Assembly: GCA_024196135.1 (NCBI GenBank)
Contig: JAMQCK010000414.1
Span: 1 to 24,193 of the forward strand
Reading direction: 5' to 3'
Source of the DNA: Pleurotus ostreatus/Saccharomyces cerevisiae fusant
Lineage: Eukaryota > Opisthokonta
DNA length: 24,193 nucleotides
The notes under the pieces were generated by a model that did no database searches, was not told where the DNA came from, and was given only the letters and a program-made list of their open reading frames with translations. This document shows positions 1,531-24,193 of the stretch, in pieces (within the stretch, counting starts at the first letter, position 1; each line of letters opens with the position of its first letter). The translations under genes and the position numbers were made by a program.

Positions 1531-2479
1531 CGTGGTCAAAAGAAGTTCCATTCGTGGGATGAATCTCGTCATATGCCGTACTAGGATGAACAAAAGCAGT
1601 CCACATAATAGAAGGCAAAACCAACACGAGTCAGGACATGGGGCTGCGCGACTGCAGCCACGGGTCGATAGCGGCGATTGGGCGGAAGCTGCGCACTGGA
1701 AATCGTGACTTGTGATTGACCAGTCGGCTAAGGATGGTTGAGGGGCTGACGTCTGATGAGACATATAAAGATCGACATTTGTTGAGAGCGAGCGAGCGGA
1801 GATAGCAGCGTCGAAAGTCTGAACTTCGGATGACAGCGAAAGCCAAGCTTTCAATTTCGCGCGTGGCGAGAAGTCACTGTTCCGTTGTGACAGACACGGT
1901 TGAAGTCTTGGGCATATCCGGGCAGTCGAGTACGCGGCAGGGCTCTCTGTAAAGACGTTGCCACACATAGCATCATGTTACTCTTTTCTTGTGCTCGCTT
2001 GAGCGACCCAGAACCCTGGTTACGTCGCGCGCGCTTGTCGCTGTTGCTCATTATGTCTGCTCGACGATGCTGGATTGTCCAGGGCAGTGACCTTGAGAAT
2101 CGCCTTGAAATCATTGAAAGCACGACTCGTTGCCTCTCAAGCCCGTAAAGTCAATATAGGTGCGTCGCCTCGTTGAATTGCGGAGGAAGGCATTGAGAAT
2201 GTCGACGCTTGTGCCTTGAGAGCATCGAACCTTCCGTCTTGCAAGTGGCGACGTCTTGTTTGCCGCGATGTTCGAGTCTTTCGCACCGTCGATCCAAGTT
2301 TCGCATCTTGCGCCTTGCTCTCATTGCGGTCGGCGGACGATTTCTTCGTCCGCATCGCCCAGCCGCGCGTCCTTTTCCGGATGCTCGTCTTGGCCAAGTC
2401 GGTCGATCCGGTCTTGTCACCGTTGAAATATGAGGTCGTCCCGGTCTCGAAGAGAAGTAAAAGCCCAAAATCCACGCAC
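1531..2479. other. Intergenic stretch with no recognisable gene
   Basis: Several open frames exist but none has a coherent start, splice sites or motif. The last 330 bases (about 2150-2480) have the same CTTGCG/TTGAGG-rich texture as the element copy that follows, so the left end of that element may lie inside this stretch. Confidence 0.5.
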
Positions 2480-2484
2480 GCTAG

Positions 2485-2580
2485 CCCCCCCCCCCCAAAC
2501 TCGGGAGGTTCACCTTGGACCGCGCCTCGGATGAGGTCAGGCGCTGGCGTACGAAATACACCTATCCCAAGGGAATCTTA
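2485..2580 (-). repeat. Hairpin cassette a, copy 1
   Basis: The shortest and most eroded cassette of copy 1. It keeps the GGTTCACC element, the CCTTGG/CCAAGG closing stem, a GACC/GGTC stem, and the variable stem GGCGTA/TACACC (one A.C on plus, U.G on minus). A run of 13 C at 2484-2496 replaces one arm of the stem that other cassettes keep. It lacks the two terminal hairpins found in b and c, as cassette a of copy 2 also does. Confidence 0.65.
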
Positions 2581-2690
2581 GGGCACGCGCGTTGACGTCT
2601 TGCGGCTGGTCAAGTCTTTCTCCCCGGCGCCGGCGTCTTGCTCCTTGCTCTCACCCCGTTCGTCCGACAGAGTCTTCAAGCACCGGCAGG

Positions 2691-2832
2691 CACGCCAGTT
2701 GGCCCTCACCCACAAAGCGGGTGAGGTTCACCCTCGGGCCGCGTTGAGGCCTGGCGCCGGTCGTGATTTTGAGGCACGACCTATTCCAAGGGAAAGCCCG
2801 CAAGGGCCGGTCTCCCCGTTAGGGAGACCTAG
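2691..2832 (-). repeat. Hairpin cassette b, copy 1
   Basis: A full cassette. In plus-strand order it shows the CGCCAG/CTGGCG outer stem, hairpin CCTCACCC/GGGTGAGG, the CCCTCGG/CCAAGGG stem (U.G on minus), hairpin GGCC/GGCC, the variable hairpin GGTCGTG/CACGACC, GCCC/GGGC, and the terminal hairpin GGTCTCCC/GGGAGACC, ending at CTAG. The homologous cassette at 7594 has a different variable stem but the same architecture. Confidence 0.75.
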
Positions 2833-3300
2833 AGAAGGAGGAAGGTGGTGATGATAGTGGTGGGCATGCAAGCAGGGCGAAAGGGTCGAACAACGAAGGA
2901 ACGGGGATCGAACACGGCAGGGAGAGGAAAGCAATCGATCTCTGACGGAGATAAGACGTTGTCAACGTCTCGCAGCTGATTACACCAAGTGTATGCTCAT
3001 GTCGGCGGAGGTGCTCGAAGCTGTGAAGATAGGTGAGCTGGGCACGACTACGGGGAGATCAGAGGGACGTACATTCAACTCAGACGACAGAGAACCCGCT
3101 ACGCGATGCACACGCTCTTACGCTCAGCCCAAGGCATCGATTGCAGAAACTCAACGAGACGCAGCACGCCTCTGCCGCGCTGACCGACTGTTGCGGTTGG
3201 CCACGCTCACTCATCACGCATCACTCTGCAAAGGGAGATTAGCGTGGCTCGAGGACAAGTAAAGAAATGCAACGTACCTCACGCTCACTCCAGCGAGCGA

Positions 3301-3437
3301 GAACGCCAGTTGGCCCTCCCCTTTCGAGGAGGTTCACCCTTGGGCCACGTTGAGGCCTGGCGCCGATTGCGCTCGAAAGCGCAACCTATTCCAAGGGAAG
3401 GCCCGTAAGGCCACAGTCTCCCCGTCAGGGAGACCTA
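3301..3437 (-). repeat. Hairpin cassette c, copy 1
   Basis: Same architecture as b. Read as minus-strand RNA, one hairpin is CCUCCUC-GAAA-GGGGAGG (a GNRA tetraloop with one U.G) and the variable hairpin is GGUUGCGCU-UUCG-AGCGCAAUC (a UUCG tetraloop with one G.U). On the plus strand both have A.C mismatches. The minus-strand side beyond CGCCAG runs through CTCGCTC-GCTG-GAGTGAG to GTGAG|GTACGT. Confidence 0.78.
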
Positions 3438-3954
3438 GAGAAGGATGAAGATATGACGGCGGTAAGAACGGAGGCGAGAAATGGGAGTGATGGCGGGATC
3501 GTGAACGATAGGGAGCGAGCAGCGGTGCAGGGGGGAGAACGAGCGAGACAGGACGTCGAGAGGGAGCGATGGTAGCGTGCGCGTAATGTCGACGACTCAG
3601 AGGGCAGCAAGACCATCATGACTAATCACACGACGAACGCGTTGACGTCGGCGGAGACGCACGGTACTGTGAAGACTGGTCAGCGTGAGCCAGAAGACGA
3701 GAAGAGTGGAGGGAGCGCACATTCACCTCAAACGATGGCGAACATCCTTCGCAATGCCACGCTCTTACGCTCAGTTTTGGGCGCCCAATGCAGAAACTCA
3801 GATACACAGCACGCGTCCGCCACGCTGAGCCGACTGTTGCGGTCGGCCGAGCCTCAAGCTCACTTACTCACTCATCACGCTGCGAAAGATAATCAGCGAC
3901 AATGGAGTAACAACAAGGGAATAAACATACCTCACACTCACTCCAGCGAGCGAG

Positions 3955-4064
3955 AACGCCAGTCTCGACAGAGCCGAGAGGTTCACCCTTGGACCACGTT
4001 GAGGTCTGGCGCCGGTGCACTGCCCGCCTGCCGTGCACCTATTCCAAGGGGTCTTGAGGCACAC
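3955..4064 (-). repeat. Hairpin cassette d, copy 1
   Basis: It has the CGCCAG/CTGGCG outer stem, TCTCG/CGAGA hairpin, CCCTTGG/CCAAGGG closing stem, GACC/GGTC hairpin and variable stem GGTGCAC/GTGCACC. Like cassette a it lacks the two terminal hairpins and instead runs into GTCTTGAGGCAC. The copy 2 counterpart at 9088 shares this end. Confidence 0.72.
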
Positions 4065-4394
4065 ATCCTTGAGGCACGCGCGTTGACTCTTGCTCCTTGC
4101 TCTCACTCCAACGGACCAGCGGGCGGGTTGCAGTACTTGCTGTTGAAGCGTTGAGGGTATTGAAAGGCGAAATTTCGCGGAGCGCCGTGCCATCTAGATT
4201 TCAAGAGAGACTTTCGACATCGCGAAGGAGCGTCTTGACGAGGAGCGCCAAATGCGGCGAACTATTGGGCCTTTCCCATAAGGTAGGAAAGGCGCCCCGG
4301 GCGAGGTAGTTCTTGAAGGCACCCAAGGTAGAAGTTGTTGCGGTTCGATGACGTTTGATCATCTTGACGCTGATGGGCGTTGGGGAAAGCAGAG

Positions 4395-4420
4395 GGTGCG
4401 ATCGGTCTTGACGCGCTTGA
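4395..4420 (-). other. 26-bp block identical between element copies
   Basis: Positions 4395-4420 and 9595-9620 are identical over 26 bases, while their flanks are poorly conserved. On the minus strand one frame reads KRVKTDRT in both copies. It could be a short coding remnant, a splicing or binding signal, or a conserved stretch of the putative RNA. Confidence 0.5.
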
Positions 4421-4894
4421 CCTCGGGGGTGGTAGTAGCGTTGACGAGCTGCAACGAGAGTGAGCGTGTGAGCGACGGCAAGAGCATTGCCACGCACCTC
4501 GAGATCCATAGTGCTCATCCTAATACCCATAGGCGACGGTCTTGAAAGGTTGGGGAATGGGGCGCCAATCCGCCACAAAGTGGCGGATGTGAGCGAAACC
4601 GGTGGTGAGCAGCGCGTTGAGGCTCGTAAATCGGTGGTATGTACGTAGAGTGCAGTGGTAGACATGATAAGGGAATAACGTGAGGGGCACGAAGCTCGGC
4701 AACGAGCGGAGGACGCCGTCGAGCCGTGGCCACCACGACGATCACCAGCACCTCGTGCATAGTAGAGCCAAATGAGGAAGAGAGGCAATAAGTTGGGCAA
4801 GCAGCCAAGCCTAACGACGCGCCCGCGACTCGAGGAAGGGGATGGTGGCAGAAGGGAGAAGAGGATGTGGGGGATCAAGCGAAGGTCCTGGTCC

Positions 4895-4901
4895 TTATAT
4901 A
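4895..4901 (-). promoter_or_regulatory. TATA-like box of element copy 1
   Basis: Minus-strand TATATAA, followed about 20-30 bp downstream by the CTTGATCCCCCA block shared with copy 2. The equivalent in copy 2 is the weaker TACAAAAGG at 10284-10276. Confidence 0.5.
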
Positions 4902-5097
4902 GCCTCTCGGCTCGATCATACCCGACACGCGCCCGTCACGGGACCCGTCTTTGTATCGACACGAGGCGACACAAACACGAGGCTGAATCGCAATTCATTG
5001 AGAGAGCATGAAAGAAGACGAGAAGGCCTGCTGCGCCAAGTGATTTTTGTGTGGACTGCTGGGACATGGTGGTTGAAGCCAACCCTAAACGTCCCAA

Positions 5098-5138
5098 GCG
5101 GGACCAAATAGGCAGGTCCACGTGTAATTTGGTTCCGT
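5098..5138. repeat. Terminal palindrome of element copy 1
   Basis: Arms at 5098-5109 and 5127-5138 pair over 12 bases, two of them G.T on the plus strand. The same palindrome at 10477-10517 is a perfect 12-bp stem. Both are followed by CGGAGTTAT and mark the right end of recognisable similarity between copies. They lie upstream of the TATA box, so they are not part of the putative transcript; a terminal structure or a protein-binding site fits better. Confidence 0.6.
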
Positions 5139-5145
5139 CACGGAG

Positions 5146-5739
5146 TTATCCAAACATGAGTTCTCTTCTCAATGGACATTGTCTGGCGCGTCCGTAATAT
5201 GCGACTAAATCATTCTGGGAGGCCGGCTTCCGCTCTTCGAAATGCGGGCAACCAGCAGTCGCCTCTGAGCTCAATAGTTGACTGAGTTTTTTGCACGCAG
5301 CAGAAGGCTGTACTAGTCGCGAGCCGCCGATGAAGTGGTGTTTGATTGCTTCACATCCCCTCAACGGCGGCGCGTGCCACATGAGCATGATCTTTGCTTG
5401 CCGCGAGAATGCAGCGTCAGCTACAGCAGACATACTTGTGGGACGGATAGCCTCTCGAGACCATGATGTAAGTTCGGTCGATCTGGCGAGTTTACTGGAT
5501 CCCTCGTCCGCCATGCCTCGGACATTCCAAAGCGCGTCGCGCTCCGAAACGAGGGCGTACTCACCTCCCCGTGCTTCAACAAGGGCACAGCACTCACCGA
5601 GCGCGAGCTCGGGGACCCTAAGCTCGTCGGCCGTCTCCCGTACCGCGTGAACACGCTCGAAGAGCAGTGTCGCGAATGAGGTCTGCAAGACCTTGCACAT
5701 GAGAGGAACCATGTTCAGAGTTAACGGCAGATATCGCAT
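5146..5739 (-). CDS. Hypothetical open frame, possible gene fragment
   Basis: A 197-codon minus-strand frame beginning MRYLPLTLNMVPLM. Its first 55 residues look protein-like (helical, FERVHAVRETADELRVPELALGE) and end at a GGGG|GTGAGTACG donor near 5570, so the rest of the open frame may be intron and chance sequence. It lies directly downstream of HPNG gene 2 on the same strand and has no counterpart in the next unit. I recognise no family. Confidence 0.3.
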   Translation of the reverse strand: MRYLPLTLNMVPLMCKVLQTSFATLLFERVHAVRETADELRVPELALGECCALVEARGGEYALVSERDALWNVRGMADEGSSKLARSTELTSWSREAIRPTSMSAVADAAFSRQAKIMLMWHAPPLRGCEAIKHHFIGGSRLVQPSAACKKLSQLLSSEATAGCPHFEERKPASQNDLVAYYGRARQCPLRRELMFG

Positions 5740-5879
5740 GAGGAATATTCTAAAGGACGGCCGCAGTCCTCATGCTCTACATAGAGGCAGCAAGTACCTC
5801 GATTCGCGGTCTGGAATCGCGACGCTGCTCATAACGTCAGTTATCAAATGATATGACCTACAGAGCATCACACACCACG

Positions 5880-6488
5880 CTAGGCGTCCCGCTGCCTACG
5901 CACTATCTCTGGAGGAGCGAATTCGACCCTCGAGTAAGCTGCCTCGAACACTTTCCGCTTTTCGAGGCCTTCTCTGTGGTGCATGATCATCGCCTCGCCG
6001 TATGCAGCCCATGCGCCAGACATTTTGTCATCAGGACGCAACCTCGCGGATTCGCCACTGGCCTCCGGTAAGAAGTCGGTATCATCGCGGCTGGAGTAGG
6101 AATCGGGCGTCGTCGGCTGAGTGGCGGAAGTTTCCGACATAGTGGCCGCCGTTTCGGAAGGCGCCTTCCCAGTTTGCTTCGCGCGCAGATCCTCTACTTC
6201 GTCCAGACCGCCCTGAAGTGCCGCCCTTATTTGCGCGGGCGTAACGTTGGTAAAGCTGCAGGTTTCTTCCGGGACGCCTGCTACCTTTCGGAAGCAGGAC
6301 TCCGGAATGATCAGGCCTCCATAATGAAGAGGAATCTCCCATACTATGCGGATGTACCGTTCGCCGTTGGGATGCACAGGACCAAAGACCAGGTACTCTT
6401 CCTGGCGAGCAACCTCAGTGTCACTGGAGCCTTGTCAGCTTACGAGCCAGAGAAAGTTCTCAGCGCAGGCATACCTGTATCTCGACAT
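5880..6488 (-). CDS. HPNG-family hypothetical protein, gene 2 (2 exons)
   Basis: Start ATG at 6488. Exon 1 is only 14 nt (6475-6488, MSRY plus two bases). The intron is 6424-6474 (GTATGC, branch CTGAC, CCAG). Exon 2 is 6423-5880, ending in TAG. The product is 185 aa. The N-terminal half reads EEYLVFGPVHPNGERYIRI, then WEIPLHYGGLIIPESC, a beta-rich domain. The middle (about 95-145) is Ser/Thr/Asp-rich and probably disordered; the C-terminal 45 residues are charged and helical. No signal peptide or membrane segment is seen. Gene 3 at 10830-11344 has the same 14-nt first exon, the same intron phase and a matching core (HPNGxR, EIP/EVP, YxGLxIPxSC, then VP..., TN(L)VTP(A/G)Q). That supports the model and makes this a real, fast-evolving lineage-specific family. 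Function is unknown. Confidence 0.62.
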
Positions 6489-7318
6489 GGACGAGGAGAC
6501 GTGGTGCGGCACGACGACGAGGGAGGCGAGGAGGACCAATGCGCGGGCCCCAACCTTTTGTATGCTGTTCCAAGAGGCTCAAATCGCCGAGTACATCTCG
6601 CCATATGCCAGCGAAGTGTAGGTCATTCCGCTCGGGAGGGCGGATATGCATAAGAGAAGCCAGCCTGAGCGCCGTGACTGCCTTGTGTTAAGAGGTTACT
6701 AGTTTCTGGATGCTCGCGGGCGTAGCCATACTAGTATCGATTCAAGAGGTCGTCGTCAAGGTGGAGGAGAGCTGAGAACAGACAGCGTCCGAGCGTTGGA
6801 GGAGCTTGGACGAGGGTGCCAATCGACATTCTTGAATGTTGGCGGCAGGAGTCAGAATGTATTTGCACGTGATGCGCAGTGACTTGAGACGTGAGCGTAA
6901 TGGTCACTGTTCGTCACGGTCGTGATCTGGTGCCGAATCCGTATCGTGGCCGCGCTGGGCGCTTTCGAGCTTCCATGAGAGTTTCCAATTGACGATGCAT
7001 GCCCGTAGAGTGGTATGCCGCATACGACTGTGCTGGGATGACTGCCATTTGAATACACCTTGCGAGAAATGCTGTACCGGAGTCCACAAAGGCTTTCAGA
7101 GGAGACGCCGGGTCGCATTGTCTGCCATGAGAACAACCTAACCGTTCTGTTTCCGGAGATGACTTGCGAGCAGTGGAGGGAGTCCTTGAAGTTTCTGCGC
7201 GGTAGGTCGTCGCCCCTTGAGGATAAGATACTAGTACCAGCTGCCGTTTCGGAAGCGTATTCTGTCAACATCCATTACACGCGTCGTCATGAAGTCATAA
7301 GTCAAGAGGCGGAGACAG
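6489..7318. other. Intergenic stretch between gene 2 and element copy 2
   Basis: No confident gene. A plus-strand frame at about 7048-7310 (LREMLYRSPQRLSEETPGRI, followed by a well-composed FPEMTCEQWRESLKFLRG segment) looks more protein-like than its surroundings and may be a remnant exon. It has no clear start or splice partners and runs into cassette a of copy 2. Confidence 0.35.
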
Positions 7319-7412
7319 CACGCCAGCTGGCCATCCCAAACTCGGGAGGTTCACCCTTGAACCGCAATGAGGTCTGGCGCGCCGGTGGAGAGCACCTGTT
7401 CCAAGGGAATCT
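7319..7412 (-). repeat. Hairpin cassette a, copy 2
   Basis: It has CGCCAG/CTGGCG outer arms, CCATCCC/GGGAGG, CCCTTGA/CCAAGGG, ACC/GGT and the short variable stem GGTG/CACC. It ends GGGAATCTTCAGGCAC, matching the end of cassette a in copy 1, and lacks the two terminal hairpins. Confidence 0.68.
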
Positions 7413-7561
7413 TCAGGCACGTGTGTTGAGGAGAAGGTCTTGCGCGTTGCGTCTTGCGTCTTGCTCTTTCTCTAAATCCCCGTCTGGTCTTGGATACCGC
7501 GCGTTGAGGTCTTCCGCCTTGGTCTTATTCCGGTCTTGAGGAGGTCTTTCTCCTGGCTGTT

Positions 7562-7740
7562 CGCCCGACGAAGTCTTCCTACGCCTCGTCGGGCACGCCA
7601 GTTGGCCCTCACCCGCAAAGCAGGTGAGGTTCACCCTTGGGCCGCGTTGAGGCCTGGCGCCGACCGCGCTTTTGAGCGCGGCCTATTCCAAGGGAAGGCC
7701 CTTTGGGCCCGGTCTCCCCGTCAGGGAGACCTAGTAAAGA
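7562..7740 (-). repeat. Hairpin cassette b, copy 2, with an extra flanking hairpin
   Basis: Full cassette from about 7594, with CCTCACC/GGTGAGG, GGCC/GGCC, the variable stem GACCGCGC/GCGCGGCC (A.C on plus, G.U on minus), GGCCC/GGGCC and GGTCTCCC/GGGAGACC ending at CTAG. Just outside it, GCCCGACGA (7564-7572) pairs with TCGTCGGGC (7586-7594), a 9-bp hairpin only weakly present in copy 1. Confidence 0.74.
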
Positions 7741-8380
7741 AGAGAGATGGCGGTGGAAAAAAGGAGCGGTCCGAATGAAGCAGAGGTTAATTCGGACGCG
7801 AAGATGAGGGGGCGGTCGCTGAGCATGACGAGCGCGCGACTGATACGCAGAGAGGGCGGCAACGAGGGAAGAGTGGCGAGAGCGCGACCTTAGCAGGCAC
7901 TGGCAAGCGTCGTCGATGACTCAAGAAGCACGCACGGCGAGCACGGTGATATCGGCGAGAAGGCGACGCTGGAAAAGCTGATCAGTATCGATTCGGTGAA
8001 TAAAGATGAGAATGACACATACGTTCAGCTGAGGCGACGGAGGCGTCGGAATGTAGGAGCTAAAGACCTCATGCGCGTACTGATAACACAGCGAGATGCC
8101 ATTTTGCCGGCCGAGCGCGTGAAAAAGGCGTTCGCGAGCCGGCGCACCAGAGCTCAATGCGACGCCATGCGCGCTCTCAGGACCTCAACACCATACGTCA
8201 AACGAGCAGACTGAGCAGAGCGTAGCCCCCAATTGCCATGCAGCGACTGTTGCGGTCGGCCATGCCTCAAGCCCATTCACTCACTCTCTCACTCACGCAT
8301 CACTCTGCAGAAGACAAATCAGCGACGATGGATTATGAGCAAGGAAATAAACATACCTCACACTCACTCCAGCGAGCGAG

Positions 8381-8536
8381 AACGCCAGTTGGCCCTCCCC
8401 TTCAAGGAAGGTAAATTCTTCCTTCCGGGGAGGTTCACCCTTGGGCCACGTTGAGGCCTGGCGCCGGTCGCACTCAAAGGCGCGACCTATTCCAAGGGAA
8501 GGCCCTTAAGGCCCGGTCTCCCCGTTTGGGAGACCT
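8381..8536 (-). repeat. Hairpin cassette c, copy 2
   Basis: Same layout as cassette c of copy 1. One stem (CCTCCCC/GGGGAGG) carries an inserted inner hairpin of about 20 bases in which AAGGAAG pairs with CTTCCTT, so the insertion lengthens the arm without breaking it. The variable stem is GGTCGC/GCGACC, extended on the minus strand to 8 bp with one G.U. Terminal hairpins GGCC/GGCC and GGTCTCCC/GGGAGACC are present. Confidence 0.76.
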
Positions 8537-9087
8537 ATTGGATGTGAAAGGCGGATGTGATGGTGGGCTGAGAATGGAAAGAGACGGTGACGGCGAGACC
8601 CCAAGGCCATGAGAGTAGGGTGGCGATGAAATGGAAAGCGAGCGTGACGATGAGAAAGCGACCTTGGCGCACGACAAGCATGCCCAGCCAACGACTTATG
8701 GAAGGCATCACGACTGATGATGCCGCGAGTACGTTGAGGTCGGCGGAAGCACGACACTATAAATTGATGAGTATGGGTCCCGGAAGGTAAATGGGTATGA
8801 CACGCACGTTTGGCTTGAACGATGGAGGTATTGGTCAGGATGGCGCGAGAATCCTCAAAATCATCGCACAAGTGCTGCGCGTCGCGCGCGCTCTCACAAC
8901 CTGAGCATGAGAAGACTGACAGAGACATCGAGACAGACGAAGCAGCACGCGTTCGCCATGCTGTACCGACTGTTGCGGTCGGCCAGCCACAAGCTCACTC
9001 ACTCACGCATCACTCTGCAGAAGGCGGTCAGTCACAGCGAAGAAGATAGCAGCGATACATACGCACCTCACACTCACTCCCGCGCTC

Positions 9088-9200
9088 GAACGCCAGTTGG
9101 CCCCCACCCGCAAAGCGGGCGAGGTTCACCCTTGGAACACGATGAGTTCTGGCGCCGGCGCGCTGCCCGCCAGCAGCGCACCTATCCCAAGGGATCTTGA
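9088..9200 (-). repeat. Hairpin cassette d, copy 2
   Basis: It shows CGCCAG/CTGGCG, CCCGC/GCGGG with further U.G and G.U pairs on the minus strand, CCCTTGG/CCAAGGG, and GAAC/GTTC where other cassettes have GGCC/GGCC or GACC/GGTC. The variable stem pairs over 10 bp on the minus strand (GGTGCGCTGC/GCAGCGCGCC, one U.G). It ends GATCTTGAGGCAC like cassette d of copy 1. Confidence 0.74.
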
Positions 9201-9594
9201 GGCACACGAGTCGCTTGAGGCACGCATGTTGAGTCTTGCGCTTGCTCTTGCTCTTGGAGGTCGATGGTCCGAGAGAAGCAGTGTGCGAGCGAGTCGCGTA
9301 GGAATCGAAGCCACATCGTGCGGTGGCGAAGCGAAGCGAGATCAAAGGAGCGTCCGCAGTTCGTCTCGATGTTGAAGGTAGATCGCGCAGTCAAAAGCGT
9401 GTCTTGATGTCGAGAGCGCGTCTTGATAATCGAAAAGCCAGAAGACGGCAAGCGGACAGACCTTTCCCACAAGATGGGAAAGGGGAATTCGTTGTACTGT
9501 TGTCGACGACTTGAGAGCGGAGAAAGCCAAAGGAGGGTACAGCGCTAGAGACGCTTGGTAATCTTGAAGTCGAAGAGCGAGTCATTGAGAATAC

Positions 9595-9620: not shown

Positions 9621-10476
9621 GGTCGGATGGTCGAGAGGCGAATCGACGATGGCGGGCGCAAGTGAGCGGCGTCCATGACAGAGAAGCGTAGCCATCAGAG
9701 CCCAGCTGTAGAGCGAGATAAAGATCCTGAATGGCTGTCAGTGTGAGGAATGATGGGGAAAGGAGTGGCTACGCACCCAGTGACAAAGCGGGCATCGAAG
9801 GTCGAGTGGCGTCGACGAACTACAGAAGCGATGAGCCAAGGCATGAGCGCGCGAACGTTGCCACGCACCTTGAGCGCCACTTTTCGTCACAAGTCCCCGT
9901 CGACGAAGGCCTTGAGGGTCCGGGAGAGCGCGGCGCCTATTTGCCACAAAGTGGCGATCGTGAAAGAGAACGCGTCGAGGAGGGGTCTTGAGGCGAGCTT
10001 GAGGATCGGAGGTAGGTGGCATGTAGGTAGAGTATAGTAAGCGACAAGATGGTGGAGGAAATGAGGAGGAGCGGGAACGGTAATAAGCAAACGATGCGGG
10101 GAACGATGCCAGGCGCAGTGGCCACCGCGACGACTCGTGTACAGTAGAGCGCAAAAGAGGAAGAGAGAAGAAGAGAAGCAATGGAGAGACACGCCCTGCG
10201 ACGCGCTCATCACTCGGGGGAGGTGATGGGGGCAGAAGGGAAGATGGGAGATGGGGGATCAAGCGAGGACCCTGGCCTTTTGTACCCCGCCGGTCCGATC
10301 AATAAAAGACACGAGCTAGTCACGGGACCCCGTCTTTGACCTAAACACGAGGCGATACAAACGCCGGACTAGATTGCGTATCAATGAAGAGAACCTGAAA
10401 GAAGGCGCGCAGGCTAGCTGCGGGCAGTGCTATGCGGTGTGGCATGGTGGCCACGACCAACCCTCGACGGCCACAA

Positions 10477-10517
10477 GCGGAACCAAATGCGGCAGACCCC
10501 GCGTAATTTGGTTCCGC
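10477..10517. repeat. Terminal palindrome of element copy 2
   Basis: Perfect 12-bp arms (10477-10488 and 10506-10517) enclose a nested GCGG/CCGC. It corresponds to 5098-5138 of copy 1 and is followed by the same CGGAGTTAT sequence. Confidence 0.62.
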
Positions 10518-10829
10518 GGCGGAGTTATTCAAATCACATGTGCTCCGGGAGCCCATTGTCCAACGTTCAGACGCGCGTGAGCCAACGATGGCGAGAGAGA
10601 AACTGCAGTCTGCATTGCAAGCCGCTCAGGGTCGCAGCTGAGGTCTTTCGCATTATCATATTCAGGAAATCATACATTCTTTATTTTATCTGACGTGACA
10701 TGAGGCGCGGGTCATCAGGACTATCCATCGTTCCGTCAGCCAAGTCCATTACACGGGACCCGCAGGCGCAACATTTTTGTGAAGGGTAGCAGGCCTATGT
10801 GTACTCAACGTGGGGATCCGAGTACTGCG

Positions 10830-11344
10830 CTAGTCGTCCCAGTGCTTGTACGCCATCCCTGGCGCAGTGCATCCAAAACCCGAACTAATGTCATCCAGCA
10901 GGTTCCGCATGGGTTCGTCGATGTCGTACGAGCGCGAGCCTCCCCAAGACGCGTTGGAGCGTCTCGAAGATCCCCCGCGAGGCTTCGTCGACTTGGCCTT
11001 CCTTAACCTGGCTTTGTTCTCTGACGATGCGACTCAGCCTTCCTGCCCAGGTGCGGAGTCCGCACTGAGTGCGTACCATTCGCCACCTTCACTTGCCCAG
11101 GTGTGACGAGGTTGGTGAGGGTGATGCTGTTTGCTGGGACAGGGGTCCCCAATGAGATGTCGAGAATCCCGATAGTCTGATAGCAGGATAGTGGGATGTC
11201 GAGCCCAGGATAGAGGCTGGGAACCTCCGATATGGGTACGCGACGTTGACCGTTGGGGTGCTTTTTGCCGAAGCTCCTAGGGCTAGCGAGGCATAAGCAT
11301 TGAAGGTGCTCAGAGCAGTTATCAGCTTACCTTGTCGTCGACAT
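10830..11344 (-). CDS. HPNG-family hypothetical protein, gene 3 (3 exons)
   Basis: Start ATG at 11344. Exon 1 is 11331-11344 (14 nt, as in gene 2), exon 2 is 11077-11282, exon 3 is 10830-11020 with stop TAG. Intron 1 has GTAAGC...CTAG; intron 2 has GTACGC, a CTGAG branch-like site and CAG. The product is 136 aa. The core, from KKHPNGQRRVPI on through SEVPSLYPGLDIPLSC, aligns with gene 2, followed by VPAN, TNLVTPGQVKVAN, an Arg/Lys/Ser-rich linker and the tail MRNLLDDISSGFGCTAPG. If intron 2 is not spliced the frame stops at 11003, giving 97 aa. It is shorter and more basic than gene 2. No targeting signal is seen and function is unknown. Confidence 0.55.
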
Positions 11345-13738: not shown

Positions 13739-16583
13739 CTATAGACTAGACTGAGCAGCATCGCCAAACAGCTCCTTCAAGAAGGCGTCGCTGTTCGGTG
13801 GGCGGCCCAGGAATTCCTGTATTTGGAGTTAGCAACTTACGCGCATATGAGAATCTCAGACGAGACACTGTACCTTCAACGAATCCATCTCCTCCCTGCT
13901 GCCTCCCGGCCTGAGGATGCAGTCGCGGTACTTCTTGCCGCGTGCCGGGTCCAGAGGGTCTGCCTTGAAGACCGTCGCTGTAGAAAGACACACGTTAGTC
14001 TCACTTGGGCGACGATCACATATGCGCAACCCGCCACTCACCGTACATATCCGCGGCATACACCAGCGAGTACATGTAGCCGTAGTACCCAGCGTCGTAG
14101 CCGCCAGTGATGTGACCGAAGGTGCCCTGCCCTGGGCATGGCTTGCCGGACTTGACGAGCGAGATCTGCTCGCGGAGGTTGTTCCAGAGCGCGGTGTGGT
14201 CTTGCGCCTCTGTTAGAGGGATAAAAAGGTCAGGAGACGTTGGTGGAGGAATTGCAAAAGTTGCGCACCCTTGGCCATGTGCACCTTGATGTCGAAGTTG
14301 GCGAAGAAGAGCTGGCGAAGGTCGAAGAGGCCAATGTTGACGTAGCGGCTGAAGGCAACATCATCAGCATCCTGAAGCAGTCACCGTGAACAGTGAGCCG
14401 ACCTCTTGATAATCTTCTCAATGAGCTCCGCCGACAACGGCTTCTTGGTCTCGTAGTGGCTGGACATCTTCTCCAGAACGCGCGGCTCCCAGCACCAGTT
14501 CTCCAGCATCTGCGACGGCGCCTCCACGAAGTCGCGCGCGACGCTGGTCCCGTGGAATCGTGCGTATTTGGTGCGCGACAGCAGACCGTGGAAGACATGG
14601 CCCATCTCGTGGAAGAAGGTGACGACGTCTGTAAAGCATCGCCGTCAACACTCTCCTCTTCTGCCGTCACCTTCAATCAAAGCACCACCAAGGGCACTTA
14701 CCATCATGACGCATCAGCGCAGGCTTGTCCGGCGTCGGCTTCGCCAAGTTCGCCACCATCGCCGCGAGCGGGTAGCTTCTCGAGCCGTCTGCCTTCTCAT
14801 AGCCGCTGAGCAGGGGCCAGACCGCCGCGTGCGAGTACTTCGACTCGCGGGGGAAGAGGTCGAGGTAGCAGTAGCCGACGAAGCCGGACTCGTCCTTGGA
14901 GTCTTTCTCCCAGACGGAGAATTGTTGGACATCTGTGAGGACGTGTTAACGAGGTAGACGGGTGAGGTGAGAAGTGTGAGTTTGGAGAAAGGGAGAGAAG
15001 GATAGAGGAAGTAAGCAAAAAAGTACGAACCAGGATGCCACGTCTTGTCGTTTTTAATCTCGACAAACTGGACGTTGAGGAGGTTCTGGTAGATCTCGAG
15101 GATAGTGGGCACGACGACGGAGACGGGGAAGTACTCCTTGACGAGCATATCGTCAAGGTCAAGGGTCTCCTCGATGTACTTGCGGTCGTAGTACCTAGGT
15201 GCCTGTCAGCGAAACGGTCAAGGGAAGGTGGATAAGAAATACCGACCGGTAGTCCCAGATGTAGAACTCGCCATCGAAGGGCAAGCCCTTCTCCTTGTGC
15301 TCCTTCTCCTTCATAGCCAAAAGCGTCTCGCGATCCTTCAACCCGACGGGTCGCAGCTTCTGCTCGAGGTCACCTAGGAACTGATAGTGTCGATCAGACA
15401 AGTAAGAGTAGACGAGACTCTGGAGGCGTACATCGACAACACCGCGGGCGTTCTTGATCATCTTCTCCTCAGTGATATAGTCCGCCCAAGTGGGGTACCC
15501 GAGGATATCAGCGATCTTCCGACGCAGCTCAAGCGCCTTGTCGAGCAGCGGAACATTGACAGCCAGACGAGATTCATGCCCTTCCTGCGCGCGTTGCCGT
15601 GTCGTCGGGTTCTCCGCGAACTTGAACACAGGGAAGATGTCCGGGGTCTTGTAAGTCACGTCGTAGACCGTCTTGTCGCCCTCGGTGCGCTTCTTGTACC
15701 CAGAGATGACATCCTTCGGCACTCCCTTGAGCTCCTCTTCGGTGAACGAGATGACCTCGTTCTCTTCGTTGAAGTTTTTCTATGGGGGATGTCAGATGCG
15801 TGGAATAGGCGCCCAGAGCGATGACGACGCACGCTGAACTGCAGGCAGGTCTGCGATAGCTCCTTCTTGAGGCTCATGAGGGCATCACGCTTGTCTTCGG
15901 GTAGTGCCAGGCCAGCGCGCTTGCCATCGAGGACCATCTTGTCGACGAGGCGCTTGTCTTCCGGGGAGAGCTTGTCGTATTCGCCAGACGATTTCAGGTT
16001 CTTCTCCGCGGCCGCTTTCGCCTGGAAGACATCCAGGCGCATAGACGACGTAACACCAAATTCGCGGCAGAGACCTTCGGCGTCGTTGGAGGCATCGCGA
16101 AGTTCCTTAGACGGAGAGACGTTCTGGTAGAAGCAGAGGGGTTCCGTGGTCGCGTCGAACTTGGTCTCCGCATCCGCCAGAGCGCGGAAGACCTGGGGGA
16201 GAGTACCTCTGTCAGCTTCTTGCACTTGCCCTCGGCATAACGACACGCACGGAGTTGAAGTTGCACTCCGCCTCCTTCAGCGCTGCGACCTTGTCCTGTT
16301 CCGCGCGATTGACCTCGATGGCCTCCTTCGTCAAGCGCAGGATGTCCTCTGCGCTGTGCGACCATTGCGGGGGCGGTTGCGGCGGCGTGAGGTTTGCCAT
16401 AGCTGGGTTCAGTGAAGCAGAGAAGATGGTCGATAGTGGGGAAGCCCTAAACTGACGGAAGGGCGTGACCTTCACGCCTGCTGACCGCCATGCTGCCGCC
16501 GTCAGCCCGGCGGCGACGGCGCTTCCGAAGAGCCAGCCCTTCGGCTGCAGCAGCGTCCGCTTCACCGATGCCGCTACCAGCAT
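13739..16583 (-). CDS. PRD1: M3 zinc metallopeptidase, thimet oligopeptidase/saccharolysin type (11 exons)
   Basis: It cleaves short peptides, as cytosolic oligopeptidases of the saccharolysin (Prd1)/thimet family do, downstream of the proteasome or in mitochondrial peptide clearance. Exons are 16251-16583, 15833-16192, 15432-15779, 15247-15380, 15031-15194, 14702-14932, 14403-14628, 14269-14348, 14042-14209, 13874-13977 and 13739-13816; all junctions keep frame, giving 741 aa. The zinc site HEMGH is at residues 530-534, and the third ligand Glu lies in FVEAPSQMLENW about 26 residues on. GHITGGYDAGYYGYMYS near the C-terminus is the conserved substrate-binding region with family Tyr/His residues. 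Starting at the second in-frame Met (MANLTPP, 16400) gives 680 aa, the usual family length. The extra 61 residues resemble a mitochondrial presequence with a hydrophobic stretch. The gene is complete with no broken motif. Confidence 0.95.
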
Positions 16584-21473: not shown

Positions 21474-24193
21474 TCAATCCACTACCTCTATCCTTGCCGC
21501 ACGACACATCGCACTGTTCCTGTTCTTCACCTTCACGAACCAGAACTTCTCGTTCATGCTGGAGCCTCATTAGCGCAACATCAGGTGGCACGAAGTCAAG
21601 AGCACATACCGAACCCTCTGCTCTTCCAACTTCAACAGCGCGGTCAGCGCTATAGATCCAATCCCGAAGCCCTCGCCCCTCGCAAGCGAGTAGTTTCCTG
21701 TGGTGACGAATCCGATATTGTCCTTCAGATCTGGCATAACATTCGCGAGCTGCATCGGAGCCGTTAGCACTCCATTAACAGCACACCAGCCCAAAACTTC
21801 ACTCGCCTCAATCTCCTTCACCGACATTCCCTCCTGCGCTTTCGTCGCGTGCTCTTCATCCTGCAACCCGTCCTCATCATCACTATCCGAGTCTTCTGGC
21901 CGGTCCATCACGGGTTGCCTTGCCTTCTCAGCCAACGCCCTCGCCCAGTTGCGCCTCTCCGCATCGTCGACGGCATAGATCGCAGCCAAGTCTCCGGGAC
22001 GCCCTCGCCGGCACATCTGCACGCGCACTTGTATCAATGCTGTCTGCAAAAGGGTATCGGCTTTGTTGATGTCGGCTGTGGAGATTGGGTTCCTCGGGTC
22101 CGGAATCGTTGCAGCAATGGTCGTCGCGCTGTTACGGTCGGCACAGGCATCTTGTCCTGGTAGTGGTAGGCCTCGCTTGCCACGCAGACGGAAGATTTCG
22201 CTCTTCAGGGCTTCCGCGGGCAACAGGACCGACGTCAGGCGCTGCAGGACCTGCCGAGTCTCTGGCCCGCGGAGCAGCCAGGGCTGAGCGATGTGGGGCT
22301 TGAGGAGGGCGGGGGTGGGCTTGGGACGCGGATGGTCCTCTGGGTTCACCGCATCGGCATCCATAGTCTCATCGGCCCTTTCCACGACTTCCGCATCCTC
22401 CATATTCGCATCGTTGACCACCTCTTCCTCCCTTTGCGCGCTCACAAACTCCTCCGCCGCTTCCTGCGCCTTCTCCTGCGCCTCAGCAACCCCCGGATAC
22501 TCAAACATCGGTTCAATCCCCAGCACCTGTCTCCAATCCGGCATCCACATGCTCGCCGTCCCCAGCGCCGCCCAATTCGGCCTCTTGCTCGGCGGCGTGC
22601 GCTCCCACCGCGCCTGCTCCTCAATCGCGCGCATCGCCCACCAGCTCTCGTGGCTGCCGTACTGCGCGAGCGTGGTCCAGTCGCCCGGGACATCCTGCGG
22701 GAAGTGCGGGACGCCGGCCTCGAAGGACTGGCTGGCGCGCTCGCGCTGGCCGGCAACGCGCGTGCCCGTGTGCACGAGGGAGGGGAGGAACGCCATGCCC
22801 CAGCCGGCGGGGAAGATGAGCGTCCAGCCGTGGATGGGCTGCGAGGGGGTGGAGGGGGAGGTGAGGGGGGAGTGGGAGGAATTGGTGCGGTTGAAGGAAG
22901 ATGTGCGGGAGGGGGCGGCGGAAGGGGCAAGGGAAGAGGTGCCGGAGGTGGATGGTGACAAAGGTTCCACGGAGCGTTGGACGAGAAGGACAGGGACGCG
23001 GTCGTCAAGGCGGAGGGTGTTGAGGGGAGTGCCGGGGACGAGATTCTGCGGGGTGAACATGTAAGCGCAAGAGGTAGTTGGCGAGGGAAATAATGCTATA
23101 CCTTCGCACGCCGCTCGTCAAGCTGCTTTTGGGTATACTTCGGCACAGTTAATTTCTTGCGAACATCCGGATCCCAAATAATGCTCGCAGCAAGCGCAGG
23201 CGAGGGGAATGTAGGTGACTGCGACTGCGCTGCCTCGTCATCCGGTTTCGCTCGCTTGGGTGGGAATCTGCAGCAGCGCTGTTTAGCGTCCTTGCCTTTT
23301 GGATTGTGCACCAGGGACGTTACCTCAGCCTCGGATCGTCCACCGTGAACCCCACAATCATGTTCCTCGGCACCGCACCCGACGTCTGCAAATCCTTCAA
23401 CGATGCCCAGAACTGGTCAAATTCCCCCTCTCCTCTTGGTACCGCCCTGAGCGCACCCCTCAACACCTGGTTCGCCTGCGGACCCATGATCTCGAAGATG
23501 TTGACCTCTCCCCGCAAGTCGGCGATCTCCACATCCTGCGAGGGCTCATCCGGGTGCGCCTTGTTGTATGTGTCCAGAGCGAATGTGACGGAGCGTTGCA
23601 GGATTTGGAAAACCCACTGAAAAGCATCGGCGTGGCAGCGAAGCCAGAGGGTACGCTTTTCGGCCGCAGGGCTGATGGGCGTGGAGGGCGTGGAGGTTGC
23701 AGGAGCTTTCCCTTTCCCTTTCCCTTTCCCTTGACTTTTAGTGGCAGGTTTTTGTGGGATGGAATTTCGAGGTTGCCAGATGATGGACGCGGGAGAGACG
23801 AGAGCAAGAGGATAAGTCTGGAACTCGTAAATGTAAGTACTGAAAGCGCGGGAGCCATCAGCGAAGCTGGTGACACGGTGAGTCAATGTCGAGGAATGAG
23901 CGTTAAAACCCTACCGAGGCGCGGCAGGGCTTGGACCCTGGCAGTCGCAGCATTGCTCAAGTGCGAGTTTCAAGATCTCCAACGGACCAGAAACCTCGAT
24001 GGGACCCTCGTACGAGGCGTCGTGCAAGATTGAGCCGTGCATAGCGGCACGATGGGAAGGGCGGAAGGATTTCTCGGTTGGTTTGACGGCCTGGGATATG
24101 TAAGGTTAGGATACTGGACAGTGCGATGTTGACGCTTATACGCACAAGTCTATAGCCCCACATATTCTTCATGATCATGCGCTTTGCATGCCA
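21474..24193 (-). CDS. POP1: Ribonuclease P/MRP subunit POP1 (6 exons visible, 5' end outside)
   Basis: The largest protein subunit of RNase P and RNase MRP; it acts in nuclear tRNA 5' processing and nucleolar rRNA processing by binding the RNA core. Visible exons 24146-24193, 23915-24090, 23324-23866, 23102-23267, 21610-23045 and 21474-21558 encode 817 aa. They start in WHAKRMIMKNMWGYRL, the family's conserved N-terminal region, so the true start lies to the right. Further landmarks are FTVDDPRLRFPPKR, the POPLD region (GWTLIFPAGWGMAFLPSLVH, then the GSHESWWA stretch), the C-terminal glycine motif in GNYSLARGEGFGIG, and the final MNEKFWFVKVKNRNSAMCRA segment. A GKGKGKGK run (about 23706-23733) comes from a hexanucleotide repeat. 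No break is seen. Confidence 0.95.
23706..23733 (+). repeat. CCCTTT hexanucleotide microsatellite inside POP1
   Basis: About four and a half CCCTTT units on the plus strand. They encode alternating Gly-Lys in POP1 on the minus strand, in a low-complexity insert between conserved segments. Because the unit is six bases, length changes keep the reading frame. Confidence 0.8.

Follow-up and report, generated by a model that had tools for sequence, protein, structure and literature searches.

Ribozymes of the hepatitis delta virus (HDV) type have so far been found mostly in the processing of viral and retroelement RNAs, or as single occurrences. Retrozymes, another group of ribozyme-bearing elements, are noncoding repeats with hammerhead ribozymes in their long terminal repeats (LTRs). 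In fungi, 230 HDV variants from 26 species have been described; these typically have a C-G pair at the cleavage site, where the general HDV consensus is R-Y, and two fungal variant constructs cleave in vitro (Li and Breaker 2017, PMC5640933). U20 and G25 in the loop L3 are given as the signature of the HDV-like family (PMC3386971), and a P1.2 domain with an extended P2 is reported to speed the ribozyme drz-Agam-2-1 (PMC4908430). Here we describe eight hairpin cassettes on the minus strand of contig JAMQCK010000414.1 (assembly GCA_024196135.1, deposited as a Pleurotus ostreatus/Saccharomyces cerevisiae fusant), whose positions 1 to 24,193 are referred to as the window. All eight cassettes of the initial annotation were recovered by a covariance model (R1). 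They look like self-cutting RNAs of the HDV type, which probably divide one long transcript into smaller RNAs. The letters and pairings of the fold, two ordered classes of predicted cleavage site, a promoter-like block common to the arrays and intron motifs can be read directly from the DNA.

The cassettes resemble retrozymes in being noncoding repeats that bear ribozymes, but these are HDV-like here and hammerhead in retrozymes; no LTRs were noticed around the arrays, for which no dedicated search was made. Like the fungal variants as described in PMC5640933, the cassettes follow the HDV plan, pair C with G at the cleavage site and come from a fungal host. However, P4 of those variants is partly a loop E, whereas P4 of the cassettes is a simple helix (over its 8 pairs, 96.3% of the cells are paired; no dedicated search for loop E was made). 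The variants also have an extra nucleotide between P2 and P3, whereas P2 of the cassettes directly adjoins P3, a register in which 99.5% and 100% of the cells of the two helices are paired. The P1.2 hairpin, the multi-copy arrays and the apparently spliced noncoding host gene are further differences from that description, and the main text of the paper does not name Schizophyllum. As the C-G pair is common to both, but loop E and the extra nucleotide are absent, we place the cassettes among HDV-like ribozymes and outside the variant class of PMC5640933. The P1.2 hairpin in J1/2 and the extended P2 are found also in the mosquito HDV-like ribozyme drz-Agam-2-1, which, unlike the cassettes, is described as a single ribozyme of an animal host with another sequence (PMC4908430). 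The R2 and L1Tc HDV-like ribozymes have the same plan and cut at the base of P1, but are reported from the 5′ ends of retrotransposons (PMC3774820, PMC4035085), whereas the open reading frames (ORFs) scanned here gave no reverse transcriptase.

In the 5′ to 3′ direction of the minus strand, the cassettes consist of P1 (CCCUUGG), AAUA, the P1.2 hairpin, GG, P2 (CGCCAG), P3, L3 (UCANYGY), P3′, P1′ (CCAAGGG), UGAA, the P4 hairpin, GCYAR and P2′ (CUGGCG). P1 crosses P2, and two letters of L3 pair with the two letters directly 3′ of P1′ to form P1.1. Judged by these pairings, the plan is the nested double pseudoknot P1-P2-P3-P1.1-P4 of the HDV ribozyme. The hairpins and the stems quoted in the initial annotation are indeed present, but they are parts of a double pseudoknot whose P1, P2 and P1.1 had been missed. 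The cassettes, which the initial annotation could match to no RNA family, do have HDV-like relatives, although no Rfam model detected them.

A DNA search gave 36 matches, the window included, and a pattern search 41 places compared to none in a reversed control. The training set of model R1 included six of the eight window cassettes; the two left out, a1 and d1, scored 49.1 and 73.9 bits. With this model we obtained 44 matches at E<0.01 on ten of the eleven stretches searched, always on a single strand within each contig, and one extra match on C746. A pattern match with 3 mismatches at C913:43053 is not a cassette by the model. The full HDV plan could be parsed in 38 of the 44 matches, with up to seven parsed copies per locus; the six non-parsing ones (d1, a1, one on C43, the second on C638 and the weakest on C438 and on C556) are absent from the pair counts. 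All 38 parsed cassettes keep U20 and G25 in L3, although the parse did not constrain the L3 letters, both P1.1 pairs, and the equivalent of C75 in J4/2, where two changes among six letters were tolerated. Position 23 of L3 and the letter 3′ of the C75 equivalent vary. HDV numbering is used for the cassette letters and for the A77/A78 equivalents. As the parse relied on conserved sequence, a generic descriptor was written with HDV-type letters and pairings only. Across 119,248 bases on both strands it found 36 sites, every one of them a cassette; nothing else in this sequence matched, and 20 first-order resampled copies of it gave no match either. A scan of viral contigs for the core gave no match. 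Taken by their fold, the cassettes very likely belong to the HDV class.

Several arrays appear to be present in two versions. For a peptidase exon of the window contig the genome contains a single partner, which is 96% identical and shares a contig with the C818 array, and C438/C556, C963/C964 and C648/C373 can be aligned over much of the flanking sequence. We infer that these three pairs, together with C630/C818, are alleles of an unmerged dikaryon. Cassette identity in C438/C556, C963/C964 and C648/C373 is 0.928, 0.930 and 0.963, compared to 0.850, 0.901 and 0.885 for the remaining array; the post-cassette introns are 0.810 and 0.796 identical in two pairs (three introns each; the script found none in the third). 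The array of the fourth pair, C630/C818, aligned poorly, and higher conservation of the cassettes (0.773, rest 0.789) is not supported there.

The initial annotation had proposed that selection acts on a minus-strand RNA and not on a DNA palindrome, since at least twelve imperfect positions were G.U on the minus strand, with one opposite case. The six fully parsed window cassettes confirmed the bias, with 12 cells G.U on the minus strand compared to 3 that are A.C (binomial p 0.035), but the opposite cells are three and not one. The 38 genomic cassettes, in which the cells of related copies are not independent, gave 65 G.U against 18 A.C (p 2e-7); the counts were 34 against 11 with the loop-proximal pairs removed and 24 against 13 for distinct positions by orientation. 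We also prepared an alignment (A1) of 35 rows, in which C818 a, C963 4950 and C964 12262 were left out of the 38. In this alignment, 96.8% of the 1159 cells of 34 pairs are paired, compared to 85.0% when shuffled and at most 48.8% when the partner was slid out of register, and 16 of the 34 pairs change on both sides; none of 500 shuffles was as high. Covariation was seen in P3, P4 and P1.2. In a stricter tree-aware test of our own on 4465 column pairs, only two of 39 structure pairs, one in P3 and one in P4, reached E<0.05 and exceeded all pair scores of 60 null alignments; of the 16 best-scoring column pairs, nine are structure pairs. Selection on a minus-strand RNA is supported by the G.U bias and this covariation, and further by splice-site-like sequences on the same strand after the cassettes, by the promoter-like block common to the arrays and by the better conservation of the cassettes than of the adjacent introns in two presumed allele pairs. 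That the cassettes are palindromes working at the DNA level, as the near-perfect inverted repeats among the hairpins might suggest, is hardly credible, and we rejected it on the G.U bias, the HDV letters and the crossing helices, all of which are confined to one strand.

The promoter-like block is common to six arrays, C630 (both copies), C818, C438, C963 and C964, of which C438 has the most diverged one; C556 shows only the downstream part because the contig ends there. Upstream of the first cassette, the arrays have in common an inverted repeat, a TATA-like box, a CT-rich stretch, hairpins and an intron-like block. By motif (G-A-G or A-A-G before GT, CTRAY and YAG), 19 introns of 50–54 nt were found 3′ of cassettes in seven arrays, in a scan without shuffle control, and many units have a second intron-like stretch ∼260–420 nt past the cassette core. 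A promoter-like block and introns are also what coding genes with repeated domains would have, the RNA features then being secondary. However, among the array indels that separate presumed alleles, only 12/50, 6/33 and 5/31 have a length divisible by three, which is not codon-like, and two minus-strand ORFs scanned in the leader region had no Pfam match. We rejected the coding reading, which we regard as very improbable. The promoter-like block, the introns and the non-codon indels together fit a spliced noncoding RNA, and the arrays look like noncoding RNA genes of the RNA polymerase II (Pol II) type.

In intact copies the cut is expected on the 5′ side of the first C in P1; the base preceding it is U in 25 of the 38 cassettes and C in the other 13. 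The predicted cuts fall into two classes. At class II sites (24/38) a hairpin, H2, ends 0–3 nt before the predicted cut, compared to 10% in shuffled flanks, and another hairpin, H1, precedes H2 in 22 of the 24 (17% in shuffled flanks); of the 23 stems that the script counts as H1, one belongs to a class I site and is unrelated. H2 is missing from the remaining 14 cassettes, class I, of which 12 have CTCAAGA just upstream. Intervals that end at class II sites measure 604–939 nt in 20 of 21 cases, and those from a class II to a class I site 255–387 nt in six of eight. A 3′ splice site directly before H1 was considered and dropped, as AG is missing there in several units.

These features led us to a punctuated-precursor (dicing) model, which we consider fairly probable as stated. 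The ribozymes would punctuate a spliced, Pol II-type noncoding precursor. Cuts at class II sites would separate successive units of about 600–940 nt, each released as a finished unit with a 3′ end protected by the hairpin, while class I sites would trim off the leader or spacers. The 5′ end of a unit would be a folded ribozyme with a 5′-OH, and its 3′ end a hairpin with a 2′,3′-cyclic phosphate. The post-cassette introns found sit inside units, so that cutting would leave them unbroken. Transcription, splicing, cleavage and end protection of the arrays are what we infer from these sequence features, and our best guess is that the released units are a set of stable noncoding RNAs. Tandem units of 604–939 nt with a ribozyme in each, present at several loci, could also be those of a selfish retrozyme- or viroid-like element that is cut to monomers, which circularise and spread. 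This we think improbable, since presumed alleles hold arrays at the same places, the arrays carry introns and the promoter-like block, and Pfam detected no reverse transcriptase in ten large ORFs from the stretches analysed, a set that is not exhaustive.

Several observations weigh against a set of cleaving, HDV-type ribozymes that dice a precursor. Just two structure pairs survive the strict tree-aware test, one non-structure pair inside P1.2 likewise reaches E<0.05, and P1, P2 and P1.1 are nearly invariant, so that covariation says little on the pseudoknots. The generic descriptor and the site classes were defined after the cassettes had been seen, the descriptor is uncalibrated on known HDV ribozymes, and presumed alleles were counted separately in all site-class and interval counts. 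The one remaining class II interval is 4010 nt long and spans both window copies; C648/C373 have no H1, and their spacers are 1129 and 1099 nt. The d1, a1 and C43/C746 copies are decayed. Rfam scans, both at the gathering score and at E<=10, gave unrelated weak matches and none to HDV, and a genome search with RF00094, with 86 of 2045 candidates scored, gave none at E<=10. At position 1, which is C in all 38 cassettes, they depart from the general R-Y consensus of the cleavage site.

The last point bears on whether the fold cuts at all. The cleavage-site pair is C1-G37 in 37 of 38 cassettes and C opposite U in one, as compared to the R-Y consensus given in PMC5640933, and C1 might make cleavage slow or silent, the fold being kept in a long noncoding RNA as a non-cleaving scaffold that binds proteins or blocks exonucleases. 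We find this unlikely, because the C75 equivalent is kept in 38/38 though its neighbouring letter varies, because hairpins end 0–3 nt from the predicted cut in 24/38, and because fungal C-G variants are reported to cleave (PMC5640933). As C-G members are known to cleave, the absent R-Y pair and the absent Rfam match do not exclude the HDV-type reading. We consider self-cleavage of the intact copies likely.

In the window, all on the minus strand, ribozymes b1 (2693..2792, R1 match 2693-2793), c1 (3304..3397, R1 match 3304-3398), b2 (7596..7694, R1 match 7596-7695, predicted cut 5′ of 7694) and c2 (8383..8498, R1 match 8383-8499, predicted cut 5′ of 8498) are of class II. Their H1 and H2 hairpins lie at 2793..2829, 3398..3435, 7695..7731 and 8499..8535 (−), the last ending 1–2 nt before the cut. 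Ribozyme d2 (9091..9193, R1 match 9091-9194) is of class I, with no hairpin before the predicted cut just 5′ of 9193. These five cassettes look intact by sequence, and their minus-strand folding energies have z-scores of −3.5 to −4.0 (200 shuffles). The values are weak in the other three: a1 (2479..2574, −1.1), decayed with P1′ and P2′ eroded; a2 (7321..7407, R1 match 7321-7408, −0.2), a marginal class I copy with a weak P1.2 and altered letters in L3 and J4/2; and d1 (3957..4051, −0.1), decayed, where J4/2 with the catalytic C is gone. Plus-strand z-scores of the window cassettes range from −0.6 to −4.3, so that b2 folds equally well on both strands. Outside the window, the decayed C43 and C746 copies (L040 4660-4759, L041 1482-1573) have lost L3.

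The promoter-like block (repeat D17) is located at 4893..5154 (copy 1, TATATAAGG) and 10276..10533 (copy 2, in which the inverted repeat and the TATA-like box precede a CT-rich stretch), both on the minus strand. By motif only, introns are predicted, again on the minus strand, after c1 (3226..3277, 52 nt), d1 (3880..3930, 51 nt), c2 (8305..8356, 52 nt) and d2 (9015..9066, 52 nt). Leader hairpins kept between arrays, of the types CGCCACTTTGTGGCG and CCTTTCCC...GGGAAAGG, occur on the minus strand at 9923-9972, 4552-4601, 9461-9483 and 4270-4292. A small hairpin CCGAC...GTCGG (loop like CGCAACA) recurs with changes 3′ of the first intron of units, at 8965-8985, 8242-8262, 3829-3849 and 3183-3203.

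A neighbouring protein had matches in Schizophyllum only in a search of 5.8 billion sequences, four in S. commune at 69–91% and one in S. fasciatum at 46% over a quarter; judging by these matches, S. commune or a species close to it is the probable host. Three arrays have as neighbours members of a Schizophyllum-only family of proteins with HP[ND]G repeats (window 11081-11266 and 6072-6377 on the minus strand, L031 7085-7879, L033 1983-2801), and the L031 member of the family has an RGG-rich stretch. The family gave eight matches at E<1e-3, on C630, C818 and C438, and no Pfam match above cut-off. As the flanks of other arrays are only partly covered, its functional link to the arrays is only an idea. 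Ordinary neighbours are a POP1-like protein (RNase P/MRP, 21570-23060) and an M3 peptidase exon (15195-15722, minus strand). At the contig end, 146-bp direct repeats at 1-146 and 930-1075, 99% identical and 783 bp apart, look like a miniature LTR-type element, similar to terminal-repeat retrotransposons in miniature (TRIM).

A wider reading, which we offer tentatively and hold at somewhat less than even odds, is that of a eukaryotic operon-like family of noncoding RNA genes. Class I entry and class II exit ribozymes would cut up a spliced precursor to give, in programmed order, RNAs that begin with a ribozyme and end in a hairpin, and the RGG-rich Schizophyllum-only proteins whose genes lie beside three arrays might bind them. 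In searches limited to open-licence papers we saw no report of ribozyme-driven processing of polycistronic noncoding RNA. What distinguishes this system is that up to seven parsed copies stand in one noncoding array with an ordered site grammar, in a genus that is probably one that includes a laboratory model mushroom. If true, the cassettes would be a fungal HDV subclass missed by the Rfam models used here and open to ready test, and, if they cleave, they would represent ribozyme-driven processing of a polycistronic noncoding RNA.

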